A stretch of 64,000 nt of DNA, taken from assembly GCA_020441005.1 (NCBI GenBank), contig JAGRNA010000015.1:1-64000 (forward strand). The letters are read 5' to 3'. Below, one piece after another: positions 48,632 through 58,670 of the stretch. Position numbers and translations under genes: made by a program. The DNA comes from Leptospiraceae bacterium (GTDB lineage Bacteria; Spirochaetota; Leptospiria; Leptospirales; Leptonemataceae). The notes under the pieces are model-generated. The model ran no database searches. It saw only the letters and a program-made list of their open reading frames with translations, and was not told where the DNA came from. Within the stretch, counting starts at the first letter, position 1. The number at the start of each line of letters is the position of its first letter.

Positions 48632-51247
48632 GTGGCGCTACTAAGAAAAAACATCATATTCCTGTCGTTTTTGGCATTCAGTTGTGCCCCTTTATTGAAT
48701 TCAATGCAGGGCGATGACGATTCTGACAATTCTCTGCTGCTATTGCTTGGTGCTGGTCAGACCCCCTCGACTAGTAGTGTTGATCAAAGTCCTGACGATA
48801 GTGGCGGCCAGGCCACTTCGGCACCAGAGACTGTCATGGATCCGCTGCAGGCCGAAACCGAGGCGTACCTTAAAATGTCGCTCAGTGGCACAACAGACTG
48901 TGAGCCACTGGATCCGCGATTGCAATTGGATCAAACCCGAATAGCTGTTTGTAAATATCAATCAGGCACTACGACCCGCATCCGCTGGTTTCCACAATAT
49001 CGAAACCTGCAGCCAGGATTTGAAACCGCCAATCAAGTCAGTCAAAAATGCAATAATCTACACAATACGCTAAAGCTGACTTACCAAAGTGATACCGACA
49101 TTGCTGTTCAATATGCCATGAATTTTTGCTATAGTTCATATCGCGATCAGCTTCCGGAACCGGAACCAGATCCAGAACCTTTGGCCGTTCCTTTAGAAAT
49201 CAGCTCCTGGTTCGCTACTATGCGCCATCCTGAGCCGGGAAAGGTTTACCCTGAGGTTTCGCACCTGACTTTTGTGACAAGCGCCAACCTGGCTTGCCGC
49301 ACATTGGAACAAATGAGCGGTTTTAAAGATTTGGTCCAACTGTGGGAGTTACAAACTGATGGCAGATGGAGCCAGCGGACCGATGTCCAGGCAAAATGTG
49401 CTCCATTTAGCAACTATTTTGTCTTACAAATAAAGCCCGGAAGGATGCCGACCTTGTCCTGGTATGATGACGCAGATATTGCCAACTACGGTCTAAACGA
49501 AACCTTACTAAAACCGGAAACGAAATACCGTGTGCTACTATCCAGGGAAATAGCTTCTGTGCCGGATTCTGTTACGGGCCAGCCTTCCCTTTTAGAGGTA
49601 TTTAATGAACTTGGAAATATCAGTGGTCAGGCAGAGCAATGGTCTGGCATTGATTTTATGACAGACACGAAACCATGTTTTGCAGCCTACGCTGATCGAT
49701 GGATCTACTCCGATTCTGTATGCAACTATCATAACATGCAAACGGACACAGCCGGCAATCAGACTGTAAAAAGAATGGGCTGTGCAATTTTAACCGGGCC
49801 CCAGAGCAGACTCGCATCACCGCCGAATTGTCAAGATCCGGCAATGTTTCCCGATGTGGTCAGCGGACCCGAACCCGATAATGCGATTGGTGACTATGAT
49901 TCATGCGGATATGAATTGGAATCAATGGACACTGATTGCCAGCTGGATCGATATTCGACTACATGCCGCAAGAAGGCTCTCAAAAGAGGCGTCTGCATTA
50001 TGAATGCCGGTCAAGATAATGAATTTGTACGCGTGTATTTCAACTTCGATGCAACCGGCTATCAAAACTGCCAGGGAATCAAACGCTCAAATGGATCACC
50101 ATTGGTGTTTTATAATGTTACATTGGAAGACATTTGGGGTACAAGCTTGAATAATGCAGTGTATTCGAATCCGGAGCTGTACTATCAGCAATATCGTCGT
50201 TCGGCTTGCGAGTCAGGCAATACCCCGGTAGAACCGGAACCAGAATCGAATTGCCAGAATAAGGTCAATATAGAAACAAGCGCTGGCCGCTGGTATGAAA
50301 CACCGGCTAGTTCCTACCTAAATACGAAAGGAAAAACAGTTAAGGTCAATGGTATTCATACTTTTTGGCAAGATGAGCTTTTAAAGCTAAACGTGAATGT
50401 CTGCGCGGAAGGCTGGTATAAACTGAACATCCAGGCAAGGAACCATTCTGGCCCCAAACCGGAATTTTATGGAGCGTTTCATTTAAACCTGTTTAATTCA
50501 GATGGAGATATGAGCTATGGGATGTCAATTCCAGCAAGTGATGATTATTATTACACTCGCGGAACATTTGTGTATTTGAGAAAAGGAGCCAATCAGCTAG
50601 ATGCTCGCTGGACCAATGATGCTTATCTAGAAAATGTCTATGATGCAAACATTCAGATTAAAAGTGCGCGCATTGTTCCGGTTACAGGCACTCCACCAAG
50701 TGTTAGCAATACAAAAAAAGCAGGTCGGGATTTTTGTAAGACAAATGGCCGATTTTTTGGAAGCGGAAATTCGATCTTCACGGATCAAACTGGCTTAAAA
50801 AGCAGCTATTGTTTTCAAGATTTGGAAGCCGGTGAATATGAATTGATTGTCAGGGCGAAAAATCGGGGCTCTACTCCGGCAGATTATACCAAATTCGATC
50901 TGAATGTGCAGCTAAATGGCAATGATGCAGGCACCATAGTAATACCTGTCAGCTCAGATCAATACAAAAGCGGTAAAATCAGGATCAATGTTTACAATCA
51001 GTATACACAAATATCCTTAAGCTGGGTCAATCCAGCCCCGACCACGGTTTCCGACAATGAAGACAACAAAGTTTGGTTTGAACTTGGAAGTTTACGATTA
51101 AAAAAAGTGGGACCTGTTTCTGAAAGTGAACTAAGCGCTTATTTACGCGCCGATTCTACATGGCAAATTACGACTACTTTAATAATCAGCCTGCTATTTC
51201 TAATCGGAATGCTCCTGATCAGAAAACGTCGACAAGCGGCAGTTTAG
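48632..51247 (+). CDS. Large lipoprotein with a C-terminal membrane anchor
   Basis: I do not recognise a family for this 871-residue protein. The N-terminus (ALLRKNIIFLSFLAFSCAP) has a lipobox-like FSC, then DDSDNSLLLLLGAG and a Ser/Gln/Asp linker, as in many spirochaetal lipoproteins. Two beta-sandwich modules of a carbohydrate-binding (CBM35-like) look follow at about 540-690 and 700-826 (GWYKLNIQARNHSG; GEYELIVRAKNRGS). The C-terminus is a hydrophobic helix (848-863) then RKRR. The start is GTG, without a ribosome site. Its codon use is AT-richer than neighbours. The convergent gene is the PrsW fusion. Confidence 0.75.
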   Translation: MALLRKNIIFLSFLAFSCAPLLNSMQGDDDSDNSLLLLLGAGQTPSTSSVDQSPDDSGGQATSAPETVMDPLQAETEAYLKMSLSGTTDCEPLDPRLQLDQTRIAVCKYQSGTTTRIRWFPQYRNLQPGFETANQVSQKCNNLHNTLKLTYQSDTDIAVQYAMNFCYSSYRDQLPEPEPDPEPLAVPLEISSWFATMRHPEPGKVYPEVSHLTFVTSANLACRTLEQMSGFKDLVQLWELQTDGRWSQRTDVQAKCAPFSNYFVLQIKPGRMPTLSWYDDADIANYGLNETLLKPETKYRVLLSREIASVPDSVTGQPSLLEVFNELGNISGQAEQWSGIDFMTDTKPCFAAYADRWIYSDSVCNYHNMQTDTAGNQTVKRMGCAILTGPQSRLASPPNCQDPAMFPDVVSGPEPDNAIGDYDSCGYELESMDTDCQLDRYSTTCRKKALKRGVCIMNAGQDNEFVRVYFNFDATGYQNCQGIKRSNGSPLVFYNVTLEDIWGTSLNNAVYSNPELYYQQYRRSACESGNTPVEPEPESNCQNKVNIETSAGRWYETPASSYLNTKGKTVKVNGIHTFWQDELLKLNVNVCAEGWYKLNIQARNHSGPKPEFYGAFHLNLFNSDGDMSYGMSIPASDDYYYTRGTFVYLRKGANQLDARWTNDAYLENVYDANIQIKSARIVPVTGTPPSVSNTKKAGRDFCKTNGRFFGSGNSIFTDQTGLKSSYCFQDLEAGEYELIVRAKNRGSTPADYTKFDLNVQLNGNDAGTIVIPVSSDQYKSGKIRINVYNQYTQISLSWVNPAPTTVSDNEDNKVWFELGSLRLKKVGPVSESELSAYLRADSTWQITTTLIISLLFLIGMLLIRKRRQAAV

Positions 51248-51552: not shown

Positions 51553-53526
51553 TCAGAAATGCTGTTTCAGTCGTAATTGAATGCGCAGTTTTTGTAAATG
51601 CTCGTTGATTGGTAAATCCGGCAGATTATTTTGAGATCGAACTGCGCAACCAAGCAACTGTTGCACCTCCCTGGCATCAAATCCCAATTCTTTATATGTA
51701 TGACATACCAGGTGAGCTTTTATGGTGTGTTCATCCAGTTTGACGTCTGGTGACCCCAGCAGCGCAAGGGAAAGGATATTATGCATTGCCACACCTGCCT
51801 GACTGATCTGTTTTTCCAGTACACCCAGGCGCTCATCCAGGGTTTCGCCCGATCTAAATGCTCTGGTTGAGATGGTGGCCAACAATTGTCTGGCAAAATC
51901 AGGGTTTTGACGTACCAAGGAATCTAAATCACTACCATCAGCCATGCTAAGAATGCTATCCTGCAAGCATCGAACACTGGCATTCCGGGGCACATTGCCA
52001 GCCAGGGCCATTTCGCCAACAATTTGGCCTGCTCCCAACCGAGCTAGCATGGTTTCCACACCTTCGCTTGATGTTTTGTAAATCTCCACTTCGCCCTGTC
52101 TTATCAGGAAGAACTCTTGCCCCCTTTTGCCTTCATGCAGAATAATGGTACCGCGTGGAAAAAAGCGCAAATCCCGAGCAACAGTCTCGGGAGTCAGAAA
52201 TAATCGCTTCAAAAGAGAATGCCCGGGCAGTCTTAACAGCAGAGAAAGGCCGCTACTCCACCGCTCTAGTGTATTGTAGAGCAAAAATATATAGAATCTC
52301 CAGGTTTTTTCCTGAAAAACAAGCAACGACCCTAGTGGCAACCTGATATTCTTATGATTTTCCTGAACCACAGCGCAACGGATCGGACCAGAATCAAGCT
52401 TTCCAAATCTCAGGGAAATAATAACCGGCTCATTTGTCGCCAATGGTGCCGGAGTTTTGGCAAAGCAGCCATAAGATCTCAGATCGTACGCATAAACTTT
52501 TGTAATATCAGCGTTATCGGGGAATCTTAGGCGCATCATAGCGGGCACACGAAGGATGCCATGTTTAAAATAAGCTGGATTAAAAACACCAACTACAAGC
52601 AGGATTAGTATCAAGGCCAAAGGTAAAAAAACAAATAAACTGAGCACTATGTTCGAATCTAATTCGATGAATATTCGGCCATTTTTGATATAATACAATG
52701 CAGGCAGAATCCCTAAGAGCATCCCAAGTACTAAACGAAATCGATGCAAGCGCCATCCAAACAAAGGCTCATAATCCGGTGAAAAATTTGCTTTTTCTTT
52801 CAGGATCCAGCGTTCATATTGAAATTGGCGCTGATTAATCAACCATCCCTGAAATGTAATTCCAAGGGCATGCAGTATGTCTGAGGGCGGCATAGCGCGC
52901 ACCTGAGCCATCCGAAAATCCAGAATAATGATTGCGATCAAGAGTGGTATCAGAGCATAAAATGAGCGTTCTGGACCAGAAAGCAAGGCTAGATCATACA
53001 AACCGTGCAATAAGACCGCCAATGCCAGAGCCTTGACTGTCCCGACAATTTTTCCTGTTTTTCCCAATAAAATCATAGCAAAATAATAGCCTATGATACC
53101 TGATGTTGTGAAATGCAGAGGCGTCACAGCGAGCGTTCGTGCCAGTAGAATAGAGTTCCACTCCGCAGAGTAAATAAAATTCTCTACCAAGGCGAACCCC
53201 AGGCCGGTTATAGAAGCTCCCATAACAATTTCCCCAGGCATTATGGGCCTACTCCGCAAAAAAAGGACAATCGAGATATAAATAATTAGTTTTTCAGGTA
53301 AAGCGGCTAAAATAAACGCCTGGACATAATGTGAATTGAATTGATGGAACTCAGGAATCTGCATGCGAATTAAAGCCAATAAAGCGGCCGCAAAAACACC
53401 GCCAACGAGAGCGATTAAATGATTTTTCAGGTCCGGATAGAATACAAAATACTGCCAGTATGCAAGATAAAAAATCAATGCAGGAAACAGGGACACTGCA
53501 AAAGGAAGTAAATCCAGGCTTTTCAT
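51553..53526 (-). CDS. PrsW-type intramembrane protease fused to PilZ-like and cNMP-binding domains
   Basis: Residues 1-205 are hydrophobic and carry PrsW motifs: LPEKLIIY (E78, K79), GFALVENFIY (E115), PLHFTTSGIIGYYF (H138) and LHGLYD (H174, D178). PrsW proteases cut anti-sigma factors within membranes. The usual first EE pair reads PE. Further membrane helices follow at about 265-315. Residues 330-410 resemble a PilZ fold (VYAYDLRSYGCFAKTP), and 455-550 are a CNB domain (GEMALAGNVPRNASV, phosphate cassette). The C-terminal 100 residues are helical. The 657-residue fusion appears to be unusual. It follows the small membrane gene by 57 bases. Confidence 0.75.
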   Translation of the reverse strand: MKSLDLLPFAVSLFPALIFYLAYWQYFVFYPDLKNHLIALVGGVFAAALLALIRMQIPEFHQFNSHYVQAFILAALPEKLIIYISIVLFLRSRPIMPGEIVMGASITGLGFALVENFIYSAEWNSILLARTLAVTPLHFTTSGIIGYYFAMILLGKTGKIVGTVKALALAVLLHGLYDLALLSGPERSFYALIPLLIAIIILDFRMAQVRAMPPSDILHALGITFQGWLINQRQFQYERWILKEKANFSPDYEPLFGWRLHRFRLVLGMLLGILPALYYIKNGRIFIELDSNIVLSLFVFLPLALILILLVVGVFNPAYFKHGILRVPAMMRLRFPDNADITKVYAYDLRSYGCFAKTPAPLATNEPVIISLRFGKLDSGPIRCAVVQENHKNIRLPLGSLLVFQEKTWRFYIFLLYNTLERWSSGLSLLLRLPGHSLLKRLFLTPETVARDLRFFPRGTIILHEGKRGQEFFLIRQGEVEIYKTSSEGVETMLARLGAGQIVGEMALAGNVPRNASVRCLQDSILSMADGSDLDSLVRQNPDFARQLLATISTRAFRSGETLDERLGVLEKQISQAGVAMHNILSLALLGSPDVKLDEHTIKAHLVCHTYKELGFDAREVQQLLGCAVRSQNNLPDLPINEHLQKLRIQLRLKQHF

Positions 53527-53583: not shown

Positions 53584-53754
53584 TTACAGAATTCTCTTTA
53601 AGTATCGGTTTTCGACCGGTGATTTTAAAGACTGGAATAAGTGCATTTTGATAGCGACTATTTTATTTGGATCAGAAAAGGCCAGATAATACAGTCCAGC
53701 CAGAATTGCAGCGGGGGCCGTGAATGCGACCCAAAGCAGCCCGCGCCGGGTCAC
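53584..53754 (-). CDS. 56-residue membrane protein coupled to the kinase-cyclase gene
   Basis: A GTG (53752-53754) overlaps the stop codon of the large kinase gene as GTGA, giving a coupled 56-residue frame. It has a short basic N-terminus (TRRG), one hydrophobic segment (LLWVAFTAPAAILAGLYYLAF) and a Lys-rich tail (KMHLFQSLKSPVENRYLKRIL). No family is recognised. The gene lies between the kinase-cyclase and PrsW genes on one strand, so it could be a small regulator or membrane partner of either. Its first 19 codons are repeated at 48112-48170. Confidence 0.5.
   Translation of the reverse strand: MTRRGLLWVAFTAPAAILAGLYYLAFSDPNKIVAIKMHLFQSLKSPVENRYLKRIL
53694..53752. repeat. 59-bp direct repeat, right copy
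   Basis: The counterpart of 48112-48170; four mismatches in 59 bases. It covers codons 2 to about 20 of the small membrane gene. Recombination between the two copies would remove about 5.6 kb with the lipoprotein, the PrsW fusion and most of the small gene. Confidence 0.9.
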
Positions 53755-56700
53755 TTGATTTGTTGTTGGTAGATACCGTCCCAAATTTCAGGCTGATATT
53801 TTTTCAGCACCAGTACCCGGTCATAAATCAGCCGCGCGCAACTATCCACTGGAAAGTCGTTTAAGTAAGAGCGCCAGGCTCGGACCGCATCGGCCCAATT
53901 CGCCTTTTGATAGAGCTCGAAACACTCCCGATACTGTTTTTGCATTTCAGCTTTTTTACTGCGCACCTCGTCTGGATCAGAATTAAACACCTCATAAATA
54001 TTATGACTTCCCGTGCGCCCCTTCAGCTGTACACGGTCAATGAAGCGCAGATCCAGATTCTCCCGATGGCGCGTCGCATGGTGCACATCTTCGCTAATGA
54101 GTATGCTGGCCCCATACTCTTTGGTCAGGGATTCGATCCGGGCCGCTGTATTCACTACATCGCCCATCACGGTGGTATCGATGCGCTCCCGGGAACCAAT
54201 CACACCGATCATTCCAGGCCCACAATGGATGCCGATTCCGCTGCGCAAGGTTACGAGACCTTTGCGCTGGCGACGGTAATTCAATTTATGCATGGCGCGC
54301 TGCATGCCAATGGCGGCCCGTACGGCGTCATATTCAGAATGATCAAAGATGGCCATGATAGCATCGCCAATGTATTTATCCACAAATCCGTTGGATTGCC
54401 GAATCGGCAATTCCATAAATTTCAAATAATCATTCAGCAGCAAAAACAGATCGCTAGCCGTCATGCTTTCCGCCAAACTGGTAAAATTGCGGATATCAGC
54501 AAATAAAATTGCCAAATCTTCTTCCCGGGCCAGTCCGGGTTCCAGCTGCGCAACGTCCCCTTCGGCGAAACGATCCGTAAATTGACGGGGGATAAATTTC
54601 TCAAAGATATCGAGCGTCGACTGCATACGCTTGCGACTGGCCTGCTCTTGTTCAAACAAGCGTGCATTGGACATGGCAATTGCCGCCTGGATTGCGTAGT
54701 GCTCGACAATTTCCTGATCCTGTCCGGTAAAAACCGAACTGGCGGCATGATTATCCAGATAGAGAATGCCCTGTAAACGATCCTGATGTTTGATGGGCAC
54801 GACCAAAATGGATCGCATTTTTTGATTGCTGATGGAATCGGCCACCTGCCAGCGTTCCTCATTGCGCGCTTCGCGTGTAATAACGCTTTGCTCGGTTCGC
54901 AAGCAATAGTCGACAATCGTATGGCTCCAGGTCTGCCCTGCGACCGGGATTCCCTTACCAAGCGAATCCAGACTAAGACTGGCCTCCTCCTGATGATTCT
55001 GTTTGGCTCCATGTTCGGCGCACAAGAACAAATACCCATGCTGAGCACCCGTAATGCGCATGGCGCCCTGCAGCACTTCACGCAGCAAGCTCTTGCGATC
55101 CAGCATAGAAGAAATCTGGCGATTGATTTGCAGTAATTGATATAATTCGCGAGCAGCACCGCCCTGTTCGCTGAGACCGCTGGAGGATTGCTGTCGACTT
55201 TGCCCGTGCCAGGCGTGCAGCTCGCTACTGTAAATATCAGCCCAACCGCTGGCGCCCATGGTATGCATTTCTGCGATACAGTCCTGGGCGCGCTGCTCGG
55301 CTGTTTGGCGATCGCCCTGGCTCCATTCCAGCCGAGCTTGTTGAAAGGTAATATGTGCCTGTAGCAATGCCAGGTCGAGGCTAGCCGCTACCTTTTGGGC
55401 GTGCTCCAGCTGCTCGCGCGCCTTGTCCAGAAGACCCAGAGCCACATAGGACCGTAGAGCCTCCAGGGAAATCTCGGCGTCCTTGTACGGATCCGGTCGC
55501 CGCTTCAACTGCACTTGAGCCGATCCAAACCAGTCCAATGCGCCTTCATAATCATACATGCGGTTAGCCAAAACCATCCGGCCGAATATCGCTAATAAAT
55601 GGCCTCCCTGACGAGCGTCCCCGGCTTCACTACCCAGCAACTCGTCAAATATAGCCAGAGCTTGTTTATACTCTCCGCGCATGGCATGTACCCTGCCTCG
55701 ATGGGCCTCCAAAAAGCTGCGGGCCATGGGGGTCATCTCGGCCACAACGCTTTCCATGTTTGCGTTTTGAAATTCAAAATCACTAAAGCGCCCCGACTCG
55801 ATTTCCAGCATGCGCATGGCAAAGTAGGTACGCAGCGTCGCGCTCCCGTTTTCATGGAGATCAAATGCCTCGCCTGCCTTTTGAATCCAGTCCCTGGCCT
55901 CGCCAAATTTGCCCAGGTAGGCTAGCAGATTTACCATGATCGTCAGCACCCGATCGAGCTCCCCCAGCCTTTGTTCACGAATGGAGCAATCCAGTACCTC
56001 TGTCAAAATCGCCACTCGTCGTTGATAGTCCAGACCGGTAGGTACAATGCCCAGCAGGCTGAGTCCCTGTAGATAGAAATGCCGGCTTTCTCCCTGCAAG
56101 TCGCGCCCGATGCGCACCACCTCTTCCGCATGACTACGCAATTCCCCCCGATTACCGGTCAAAAAGGCGTGATTGGCCTGTAAATAATGCAGCCGCAGCT
56201 GCCAGAAAGCCTGGTCTAGCTGCAAGGACTGTAAGCCGGCAATGTCGGCGGCCATGCTGCGGGCATCGGGATGAATATTATAATTAAAGAGCGCCGAACA
56301 AAACAGAATATCAAATTGCAATTCTTTTTGCAAGGCATCCGCCCTTCCGCCCCGCACCAGCTCGGCCGCCAAATTATAATATAGTTGAGCTTCTCGGCTG
56401 CTCCAGTTCTCATCCTGATTCAGGCGGCCGGCCTTGAAATAGTACTGAGCCGTTTTGTTGTAATCCTGAGCGCTTTGATAGTGATAAGCTAGATCATAAA
56501 CAGTATTAGGGTTGTGTCGCAAAAAATTGCGCTTCAAAAACACGGCAATCGTGCGATGCATGCGGTTACGCGCATCCAGATCAATGGACTCATGCAGCTG
56601 CCTGCGCAGCGCCATATCGCGAAAGGAATACAGCTGATCGGCATTCAGGCTCAGGATACCGGTATTGCGCGCTTTGTCCAGTGTCTGTAGCACTTGCTGA

Positions 56701-58670
56701 TTATGCAAGGCCAGGTTTTCAAGCTCCTTTAGACTGGTGACCTGCCGCTCTTCCAACAAGGATTGTAGCGATTGGATACTGAAAGCCCGCTGAAAGATTG
56801 CCCCGCGCTTCAGTATTTCCAGCTCATCAGGCGTAAATGAACGCAACACGGCAAGGTGATCCTGATTGGCGCTGCTAGAAAGCAGGTCGGCCAGGCGGTC
56901 AAAGTCGCACTGCCAGGCCAGGCTACGCTCCTCGTAATATAAAATTTGCTGATCGACCATGTCCTGCAGCATGGTGCGCAACCGCCGCGGATTCCCGCCG
57001 CTGGCATCCATGAGCGGATCCAGCAGGCGCGTCAAATCGATCAAGGAGTTGGAAAAAAGGCTTTGGAGCAGCGCCGCCAGATGGTGATGCGACAGGGGAG
57101 TGAGCGCAATCTCGCGCGTATGCCTGTCCTCCAGAATCTGCTTTACCAGCGAGCGGTAACGCCCACTAAGCAGTTCCCGATTGTAGGTGGCAACGATCAA
57201 CAGCCGCTTGGCCTTCATACTTTGGCTCAGCTGGTGCAGCAAGTGCAACGAGCTTTCATCGATGAAGTGCAAACCGTCAATTAAAAGCAGAACCTGCTGG
57301 CCGCGTTTATAATAAAATCGGACCAATTTCTGACAGGTTTGCAAAATCCGGTCCGCGTCCCGGCTGCCAACATCCATCGGGCCCTGTTCAAGCCATCGCT
57401 CCAGTTCCGGCAAGAATTGCAGGAGAATCTGTACATCAGCTCCCAGATCATGCTGCAAGTCCTGCAACAATTGTTGTTGGGCGTCCGGATCCAGGCTCTC
57501 CAGGTGTTCAATGAATCCGCGCAAGATTCCGCCCAGCCCGCTATAACTGGCCATGTTCTCGCTTTGATGCGGTCGAAAGAAAATGTTTTTGCGATGGGAA
57601 TGCACCTGCGAGCGATTGAAAAACTCGCGCAAGAGACTGCTTTTGCCCAGACCGCGCGCCGATTCAATTAGTACTATTTTTTCATGACTTTGTAGCAAGA
57701 ACTGCTCAAGATCGCCCAGTACGCGCTCCCGGCCGATGAGCGGATTTTCCGCCGGGAAGCTGATGGAATGATCCTCCTGCGCCACCGGAAAATCGATTAC
57801 GGCACGCTCATCGCGCTGCAAGATACGCTGCATATGCTCCAGATCACGTTGAAACCCGGCTGCGCTGGAATAGCGCTCTGCAGGCTCCTTGGCCAGCAGC
57901 TTGAGAATGGCTGCGCATAGGGCCGGCGGCAAATCGGCGCGCAGGGCGGCCGGCGTCTGCGGCACCTGGGCCAGATGCTGGTGCGTCAATATGGCCGGGT
58001 CGCTGGCTTCAAAGGGCAGACGACCCGTGCAAAGCTCCCAGGCAATGATGCCCATTGAATACAAATCGGAGCGATGATCGATAATTTTTTTTAGTATTCC
58101 GGTCATCTCAGGCGCCATGTAAGCCAGGGTGCCGGTAAATTGACGCGGTTGGTATTCCATTAAATGTGAGAGTCCAAAATCTAGGATGCGCAACTGGGGC
58201 TCACCCTGCGGCTGTTCCTGCGTCAGGATATTCGTGCATTTCAAATCATTGTGTAAAATGGAATGATTATGCACATACTGTAAGGCAAAGGCCAGCTGCC
58301 TCAGAATGGCCAGAATCGTTTTGAGCGGCGGATTGGGGTGCTGCCGTATCCATTCTTTCAGGGTAGAGCCTTCCTGCCAGGCGGTCACAATGCCGTAGTG
58401 CTCGTCCTTTTCAATGAAACCAAAATAGGGTATGACCCCGGGATGCTTGAGTTCGGCTAGTATGCCCGCCTCCTGGCGAAAGCGCAACAAAGCCTCCAGG
58501 GGATACTGCTGTCGTTTGATGTCGATCAGCTTGAGGGCGCAGGGTCGGTTGTGCCATTCGTCCACCACCTGGTAGACCACTCCGGCGCTGCCCTCCCCGA
58601 GGCTGCGTTTGACCCGATAGCGATCTAAAAACAGTTGCTCCGCTTGCAGATATAGCATGGCGGGATCCAT
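53751..58670 (-). CDS. Ser/Thr kinase-AAA-TPR-GAF-adenylate cyclase
   Basis: A 1639-residue cytosolic signalling protein. Kinase domain: GEGSAGVVY (25-33), K47, HNDLKCTN (140-147, catalytic D142) and DFG (164-166). ATPase: SARGLGKSS (337-345) and LLLIDGLHF Walker B. A TPR-like helical region spans roughly 700-1150. A GAF domain covers about 1190-1340, and a class III cyclase starts near 1383 with metal Asp D1392 and D1436, K1432, D1504 and R1511, so adenylate cyclase activity with ATP as substrate is expected. A basic tail of about 110 residues ends the protein. The kinase site appears intact, although HND replaces HRD. Similar fusions are common in Leptospira. ATG 58670 has no ribosome site. 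Confidence 0.87.
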   Translation of the reverse strand: MDPAMLYLQAEQLFLDRYRVKRSLGEGSAGVVYQVVDEWHNRPCALKLIDIKRQQYPLEALLRFRQEAGILAELKHPGVIPYFGFIEKDEHYGIVTAWQEGSTLKEWIRQHPNPPLKTILAILRQLAFALQYVHNHSILHNDLKCTNILTQEQPQGEPQLRILDFGLSHLMEYQPRQFTGTLAYMAPEMTGILKKIIDHRSDLYSMGIIAWELCTGRLPFEASDPAILTHQHLAQVPQTPAALRADLPPALCAAILKLLAKEPAERYSSAAGFQRDLEHMQRILQRDERAVIDFPVAQEDHSISFPAENPLIGRERVLGDLEQFLLQSHEKIVLIESARGLGKSSLLREFFNRSQVHSHRKNIFFRPHQSENMASYSGLGGILRGFIEHLESLDPDAQQQLLQDLQHDLGADVQILLQFLPELERWLEQGPMDVGSRDADRILQTCQKLVRFYYKRGQQVLLLIDGLHFIDESSLHLLHQLSQSMKAKRLLIVATYNRELLSGRYRSLVKQILEDRHTREIALTPLSHHHLAALLQSLFSNSLIDLTRLLDPLMDASGGNPRRLRTMLQDMVDQQILYYEERSLAWQCDFDRLADLLSSSANQDHLAVLRSFTPDELEILKRGAIFQRAFSIQSLQSLLEERQVTSLKELENLALHNQQVLQTLDKARNTGILSLNADQLYSFRDMALRRQLHESIDLDARNRMHRTIAVFLKRNFLRHNPNTVYDLAYHYQSAQDYNKTAQYYFKAGRLNQDENWSSREAQLYYNLAAELVRGGRADALQKELQFDILFCSALFNYNIHPDARSMAADIAGLQSLQLDQAFWQLRLHYLQANHAFLTGNRGELRSHAEEVVRIGRDLQGESRHFYLQGLSLLGIVPTGLDYQRRVAILTEVLDCSIREQRLGELDRVLTIMVNLLAYLGKFGEARDWIQKAGEAFDLHENGSATLRTYFAMRMLEIESGRFSDFEFQNANMESVVAEMTPMARSFLEAHRGRVHAMRGEYKQALAIFDELLGSEAGDARQGGHLLAIFGRMVLANRMYDYEGALDWFGSAQVQLKRRPDPYKDAEISLEALRSYVALGLLDKAREQLEHAQKVAASLDLALLQAHITFQQARLEWSQGDRQTAEQRAQDCIAEMHTMGASGWADIYSSELHAWHGQSRQQSSSGLSEQGGAARELYQLLQINRQISSMLDRKSLLREVLQGAMRITGAQHGYLFLCAEHGAKQNHQEEASLSLDSLGKGIPVAGQTWSHTIVDYCLRTEQSVITREARNEERWQVADSISNQKMRSILVVPIKHQDRLQGILYLDNHAASSVFTGQDQEIVEHYAIQAAIAMSNARLFEQEQASRKRMQSTLDIFEKFIPRQFTDRFAEGDVAQLEPGLAREEDLAILFADIRNFTSLAESMTASDLFLLLNDYLKFMELPIRQSNGFVDKYIGDAIMAIFDHSEYDAVRAAIGMQRAMHKLNYRRQRKGLVTLRSGIGIHCGPGMIGVIGSRERIDTTVMGDVVNTAARIESLTKEYGASILISEDVHHATRHRENLDLRFIDRVQLKGRTGSHNIYEVFNSDPDEVRSKKAEMQKQYRECFELYQKANWADAVRAWRSYLNDFPVDSCARLIYDRVLVLKKYQPEIWDGIYQQQIK

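Follow-up and report, generated by a model that had tools for sequence, protein, structure and literature searches.

What does an intramembrane protease of the PrsW type do when it is fused to a PilZ-like fold and a cyclic nucleotide-binding (CNB) domain, and which protein would it cut? The question is raised by an ORF in a stretch of 64,000 nucleotides from a Leptospiraceae bacterium (this whole stretch is called the window below). An earlier note had placed the ORF at 51553-53526 on the minus strand and had suggested an intramembrane protease with two second-messenger inputs. The position is exactly as given there, with an ATG start and a product of 657 aa. Data from the window, from its own genome and from other genomes of the phylum make it probable, in our judgement, that this PrsW-type protein is a dedicated C-terminal processing or sorting enzyme for a few tagged exported lipoproteins.

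The protein is a genuine fusion. In Pfam it matches PrsW-protease (PF13367) at residues 37-197 (4e-15, 56.3 bits against a cut-off of 23.5) and cNMP_binding (1.9e-21, 76.3 bits against a cut-off of 27.5), which supports both the intramembrane-protease core and the CNB domain of the earlier note, and PF13367 matches 19/19 members of A1, the alignment of PrsW-PilZ-CNB proteins. With the NCBIfam PrsW equivalog model NF033739 the window protein scores 38.5 bits, below the curated cut-off of 225, and judged by these profiles it is a PrsW relative, not a PrsW equivalog. In the full-length AF2 model (pLDDT 75.8) the PrsW-like core (residues 1-210; 52897-53526, minus strand) consists of seven predicted membrane helices. 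Two further predicted membrane helices lie within residues 262-311 (helices 262-280 and 291-311; 52594-52743, minus strand), beta strands occupy 331-406, and further strands run across the CNB domain. A Foldseek search with the full model gave CRP-type chains as its top rows and was thus uninformative on the PrsW core. Five PrsW ORFs of the own genome exceed the Pfam cut-off; among these, L003 (460 aa) combines PrsW and PilZ-like parts and lacks the CNB domain.

Using the 657-aa protein as query, 18 other full-length homologues were found in 30 genomes of the order, the own genome included, and a profile run on the phylum (392 genomes) had matches at E<=1e-30 in 55 genomes. The window protein, the 18 homologues from the order and 11 further full-length proteins of the same phylum make up the 30 rows of alignment A3. 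The PrsW-PilZ-CNB layout is spread through the order and also occurs in further families of the phylum, and an ORF artefact or a chance fusion could be rejected, as 29 full-length relatives were aligned. When the profile of A1 was compared with that of A2, the PrsW-PilZ family, 437 columns could be aligned, with a probability of 100%. A tree built from 51 PrsW cores places the CNB-bearing proteins in a single group (30 rows, support 100/96), with PilZ-only proteins (12 rows, 91/81) as its neighbours. A sequence search of the PDB with A2 gave no match at E<=1. Only CNB matches were found in a plasmid collection, and a profile search of genome contigs gave four loci that were likewise CNB-only.

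Four motifs mark the putative active site, all encoded on the minus strand: E78-K79 (53290-53295), where other PrsWs have EE; F111xxxE115 followed by N116 (53179-53196); H138 (53113-53115); and H174xxxD178 (52993-53007). E78, E115, H138 and H174/D178 are placed by the AF2 model in four successive predicted membrane helices. In A3, whose rows are about 23-34% identical to the window protein, E78, K79, F111, E115, N116, H138, H174 and D178 are invariant (30/30 rows, window included). The PrsW motifs FxxxE, H and HxxxD/N are all present in the 30 rows, as F111/E115, H138 and H174/D178. EExxK is absent: all rows have E78-K79, and position 82 has no basic residue among those listed. The earlier note had read the first Glu of the EE pair as replaced (PE), and this proved to be a misalignment. 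In a gapless comparison the window reads ALPEKLII and the other PrsWs of the own genome read ALLEELGK, PVEEFAKF, ALTEELIR and LLEEAVKC; here and in 30/30 rows E78 is kept and it is the second Glu that has become Lys79, so that loss of the first catalytic Glu was rejected. In A2 the EE pair is invariant.

According to the accessible part of PMC11980579, the first Glu of MrtX and MmRce1 bridges or activates the catalytic water together with a His. Since E78 matches this water-activating Glu, the retained residue would suit an enzyme that is still active, with a changed chemistry. Replacement of the second Glu by K79 and loss of the basic residue of EExxK throughout the CNB clade would also suit a pseudoprotease without activity, which would bind tailed proteins (described below) and serve as their membrane anchor or chaperone under second-messenger control. 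We consider this distinctly unlikely, as E78, E115, H138, H174 and D178 are kept in 30/30 rows at such low identity, and the sister clade, which has an intact EE, is accompanied by the same kind of partner.

The PilZ-like part (residues 326-410; 52297-52551, minus strand) is recognisable by its fold. Pfam PilZ gives E 0.1 and 13.4 bits with the full window protein (residues 326-392), and 0.007 and 17.1 bits with the region alone, both below the gathering cut-off of 22.5, and excised PilZ regions match at E<=1 in 9/28 cases (best 1.3e-7). Thus, of the three profile comparisons proposed in the earlier note, PrsW and CNB exceed their Pfam cut-offs and PilZ falls short of its own. When the region was modelled alone (pLDDT 82.8), the first 17 rows of Foldseek were PilZ domains or PilZ-bearing proteins such as cellulose synthase (best E 5.8e-3), and in VIA the first 33 rows were, with few exceptions, PilZ or PilZ-bearing (best Z 10.9, 2gjg). 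The PilZ-like fold and the three-part fusion claimed in the note are hence borne out by structure search, Pfam and full-length homologues taken together. The motifs RxxxR and DxSxxG characterise c-di-GMP-binding PilZ domains in the accessible text of PMC11800159, and RxxxR and [D/N]xSxxG are absent in the CNB clade (alignments A1 and A6). For this reason the domain is non-canonical, and its role is probably structural.

The CNB domain (residues 454-541; 51904-52167, minus strand) is of the ordinary kind, with CRP-type chains as its top Foldseek rows. The phosphate-binding cassette of CNB domains has the motif G-E-x-A...R-x-A. In the window protein the cassette GEMALAGNVPRNASV (residues 504-518; 51973-52017, minus strand) is intact, G504, E505 and R514 being invariant (30/30 rows of A3) and A516 present in 28/30. 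As to the two second-messenger inputs of the earlier note, the CNB input therefore stands with its intact cassette and the PilZ input does not, and on present alignments only the CNB domain looks like a working input. A protease that receives c-di-GMP through PilZ and cAMP through CNB would agree with the confirmed PilZ fold and the canonical CNB domain; we regard it as very unlikely, given that RxxxR and DxSxxG are absent in the CNB clade.

Where cAMP might come from was considered among the neighbouring genes. The upstream gene (53751-58670, minus strand) encodes a 1639-aa protein with kinase, AAA, GAF and class III nucleotide cyclase parts (Pfam), and it is a possible cAMP source for the PrsW-PilZ-CNB protein. 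A conserved operon with this kinase-cyclase as the source was unsupported, as a similar cyclase-bearing ORF occurs in 3/20 neighbourhoods, in other layouts. The own genome has 47 class III cyclase matches, and the 30 genomes of the order range from 1 to 77. With a neighbour that is not conserved and so many cyclase matches, the specific cAMP source is unproven. Genes for Hpt, FliG, EAL, HDOD, thiolase and short-chain dehydrogenase proteins were rejected as partners, being clade-specific and near some homologues only. As a side observation, in one genus an Hpt-domain gene and fliG flank the PrsW-PilZ-CNB gene (L078:7999-8307 and L078:10127-11218; the same in L079, L080 and L085), and no tail of the kind described next was found at E<=1e-3 in those genomes among the matches listed.

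Converging on the protease gene is a gene at 48632-51247 (plus strand) for a lipoprotein-like exported protein of 871 aa with a C-terminal tag. Its N-terminal signal ends in a lipobox-like ...FLAFSC (48632-48685, plus strand). At the other end, on the same strand, the product has the motif SELSAYL (51125-51145), seven residues, a hydrophobic helix (51167-51220; sequence and hydropathy scans) and the basic C-terminus RKRRQAAV (51221-51244). Similar C-terminal ends were found on genes adjoining homologues in other genomes, and this tailed partner is the likely substrate of the PrsW-PilZ-CNB protein.

We gathered 63 distinct tailed ORFs, for which the consensus is SxLxAY[LI], about 6-10 residues, a transmembrane helix and basic residues. 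The tripartite build of C-terminal sorting systems is thus present, with the motif pattern placeable in 60 of the 63 tails. In these 60, with counts conditional on the regular expression that placed the motif, Leu stands at position 0 in 57, Ala or Gly at +2 in all, Tyr or Phe at +3 in 58, Leu or Ile at +4 in 58 and Ser at -2 in 38. The linker from motif to helix has 6-10 residues in 57/60 tails, and the tail end is net positive in 57/60. After the helix there remain 5-21 residues (median 10, n=63), too short a stretch for cleavage to free a cytosolic signalling domain, which argues against a cascade of the anti-sigma type. A lipobox-like N-terminus was seen in 39/52 tailed ORFs with a usable start by a crude pattern, and in five more by eye. 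The bodies of the tailed proteins are unrelated (LruC/DUF4842, CBM60-like, Laminin_G/DUF5018, Ig-like/CarboxypepD_reg or no family) and have the tail alone in common, as in many-to-one sorting systems (PMC3237569).

Known tags do not account for these tails. No conserved Cys is present in the 63 tails, where MYXO-CTERM has an invariant one, and no NCBIfam model matches the tag strongly. Weak matches were obtained with LPXTG_anchor (9/18 tails, best 1.6e-4), PEP-CTERM and others; we read them as matches to a helix with a basic end and rejected these models. A canonical sortase was found in 0/30 genomes of the order, which speaks against an LPXTG/sortase system, and exosortase-like matches, below cut-off, occur in 3/30.

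Two further observations concern the tailed proteins themselves. After the lipobox Cys their N-termini (e.g. 48632-48770) often show a stretch rich in Lys and Asp and then a short hydrophobic run to Gly (e.g. NSLLLLLGAG), which may be a second sorting feature. Tagged lipoproteins with an LruC domain (DUF4842) are found at L074:14736-16259, L075:6671-8704, L104:8539-9996, L151:3435-4850 and L168:370-1647, and LruC-type proteins may be clients of the tag system.

To what extent do the tails accompany the protease? Profile A4 was built from six tails, all adjoining PrsW-PilZ-CNB genes. Run on the whole own genome, it recovered the window gene, one more tail below 0.01 (4e-5) and two weak matches at 0.1 and 1.1. 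The second tail is found 345 bases upstream of L003, the PrsW-PilZ paralogue, so both tails of this genome at E<=0.05 adjoin its two PrsW-PilZ-type genes. Over 41 loci, A4 found tails beside further PrsW-PilZ genes. By profile, hydropathy scan and inspection, an adjacent tailed gene is present at 9/11 PrsW-PilZ loci and at 9/27 PrsW-PilZ-CNB loci, with none adjacent at the remaining 18/27.

A wider profile, A5, was made from 18 tails of 14 training genomes; those of L102, L104, L105 and, more weakly, L098, non-significant with A4, were added after inspection. It was run first on the order (30 genomes) and after that on the phylum (392 genomes), where at E<=1e-3 at least 42 genomes had tails, with at least 61 matches, 18 of them training sequences; as at most 16 candidates were scored per genome, weak tails are undercounted, and G028 had tails in the 30-genome search that are not listed in the 392-genome search. 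For comparison we used the list of 55 PrsW genomes, from which G093 (a CNB-only match) was left out and to which G015 (a gene in two pieces, joined to one interval) and a second gene of G026 were added; it includes a few PrsW-alone matches or partial ORFs (G373, G025, G022 and G222).

Among the matches listed, 41 of the 42 tail genomes fall within this PrsW list, and 27/28 do so when the training genomes are left out. Tag and enzyme thus co-occur, and the reverse relation is incomplete (41/55): again among the matches listed, a tail at E<=1e-3 is absent in 14 PrsW genomes, all four of genus g10 included. The exception, G021, a genome of 78% completeness, has two tailed proteins (L147 and L201) and PrsWs only of types other than PrsW-PilZ; another protease may serve the tag here, or the gene may be missing from the assembly. 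These gaps count against the proposed pairing, as do the 18 PrsW-PilZ-CNB loci with no tail beside them. Among the matches listed, 14 of the 43 non-training tails, from 10 genera, have a PrsW gene no more than 2 kb away, where about 0.07 such tails are expected by chance, and the P values of this test ignore phylogeny.

Shared ancestry was weighed as a source of the pattern. If the tails were generic C-terminal anchors and the PrsW link a lineage effect, it would be natural that tails and PrsW gene are both confined to some families of the phylum and that the weak LPXTG and PEP-CTERM matches reflect a helix with a basic end. We find this scarcely credible in view of the adjacency of non-training tails in those 10 genera, which goes beyond shared genome ancestry alone, and of tails at E<=1e-3 in just 1/337 genomes outside the PrsW set among the matches listed. 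The remaining 29/43 non-training tails among the matches listed are unlinked to PrsW genes. This is as a many-to-one system predicts: for rhombosortase, the accessible text of PMC3237569 reports many-to-one sorting with adjacency mainly in genomes with one target.

The linkage could also be that of a partner. A tailed lipoprotein might act as a sensor or regulator bound to the PrsW protein via its tail, with another protein, e.g. an anti-sigma factor, as the true substrate; adjacency alone cannot separate substrate from partner, and the only characterised PrsW, that of Bacillus subtilis, acts on RsiW according to the accessible part of PMC12943098. We hold this to be unlikely, since tails on unrelated bodies, most of them far from PrsW genes in the non-training set listed above, fit substrates better.

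We therefore return to the tailed proteins as substrates and suggest the following sequence of events. The tailed protein would be exported and N-terminally lipidated, and its C-terminal helix would hold it, double-anchored, in the inner membrane. On the outer face the PrsW core would recognise the motif by the helix and cleave within this helix or beside it, which would allow the freed lipoprotein to reach the outer membrane or the surface. Gating of the protease would fall to the cytosolic module of PilZ fold and CNB domain, with cAMP as the most likely signal; the CNB domain would act on the core via the two additional helices and via the PilZ fold as a spacer. The fuller proposal has about an even chance in our view: a 'sortase' gated by cAMP via CNB that decides when tagged lipoproteins leave the inner membrane for display, which would be the first sorting function of a PrsW, with the E-K variant arisen once together with the CNB domain.

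PrsW has been studied well in one role, the cleavage of an anti-sigma factor. If the proposal is true, protein sorting would gain a further protease family, through a PrsW clade that has a C-terminal tag of its own, and one of its enzymes would contain its own cytosolic switch. Moreover, the many class III cyclases of the relatives would gain a possible output. The tagged partner also points to a concrete candidate substrate for other PrsW-PilZ proteins, Leptospira LIC_20173 among them.

Several elements of the system are already known, namely PrsW fusions to PilZ or CNB, the PrsW-PilZ protein LIC_20173, and sorting by glutamic proteases (myxosortase). In a literature search, with most subscription journals outside its coverage, no paper linking PrsW to a C-terminal tag was found. 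A 2012 survey mentions PrsW fused to PilZ, cyclic nucleotide-binding, FHA or Zn-ribbon domains as likely signalling peptidases; this takes one sentence, and the accessible part of the survey does not describe the combined PrsW-PilZ-CNB protein, the motif change or a tagged partner (PMC3482391). B. subtilis PrsW (YpdC) shares the motifs FxxxE, H and HxxxD/N in the accessible text of PMC12943098, and differs in that it stands alone, has EExxK and cleaves RsiW. A similar layout is that of L. interrogans LIC_20173, for which the accessible parts of PMC12943098 and PMC11800159 give a seven-helix PrsW core, two more helices and a non-canonical C-terminal PilZ domain, the layout of the own-genome paralogue L003. 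Unlike the window protein it is described there without CNB and with EE kept; those parts name no tagged partner and propose RsiW-type signalling, with a substrate by analogy.

Among sorting systems, GlyGly-CTERM with rhombosortase resembles ours in many-to-one pairing and in adjacency where targets are few; it differs in its rhomboid serine protease and its motif, and the accessible text describes no regulatory domains (PMC3237569). MYXO-CTERM with the myxosortase MrtX, a CPBP protein, is alike in both components, as far as the accessible text of PMC11980579 goes: exported proteins carry a motif, a helix and a basic end, and the enzyme is an intramembrane protease of the glutamic type whose motifs contain Glu and His; its relative MrtJ forms dedicated protease-target gene pairs. 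In comparison, the window enzyme is a PrsW and not a CPBP protein, the tag SxLxAY[LI] is without the invariant Cys, the tagged proteins are few per genome, and the protease itself, unlike MrtX, bears cytosolic PilZ-fold and CNB domains.
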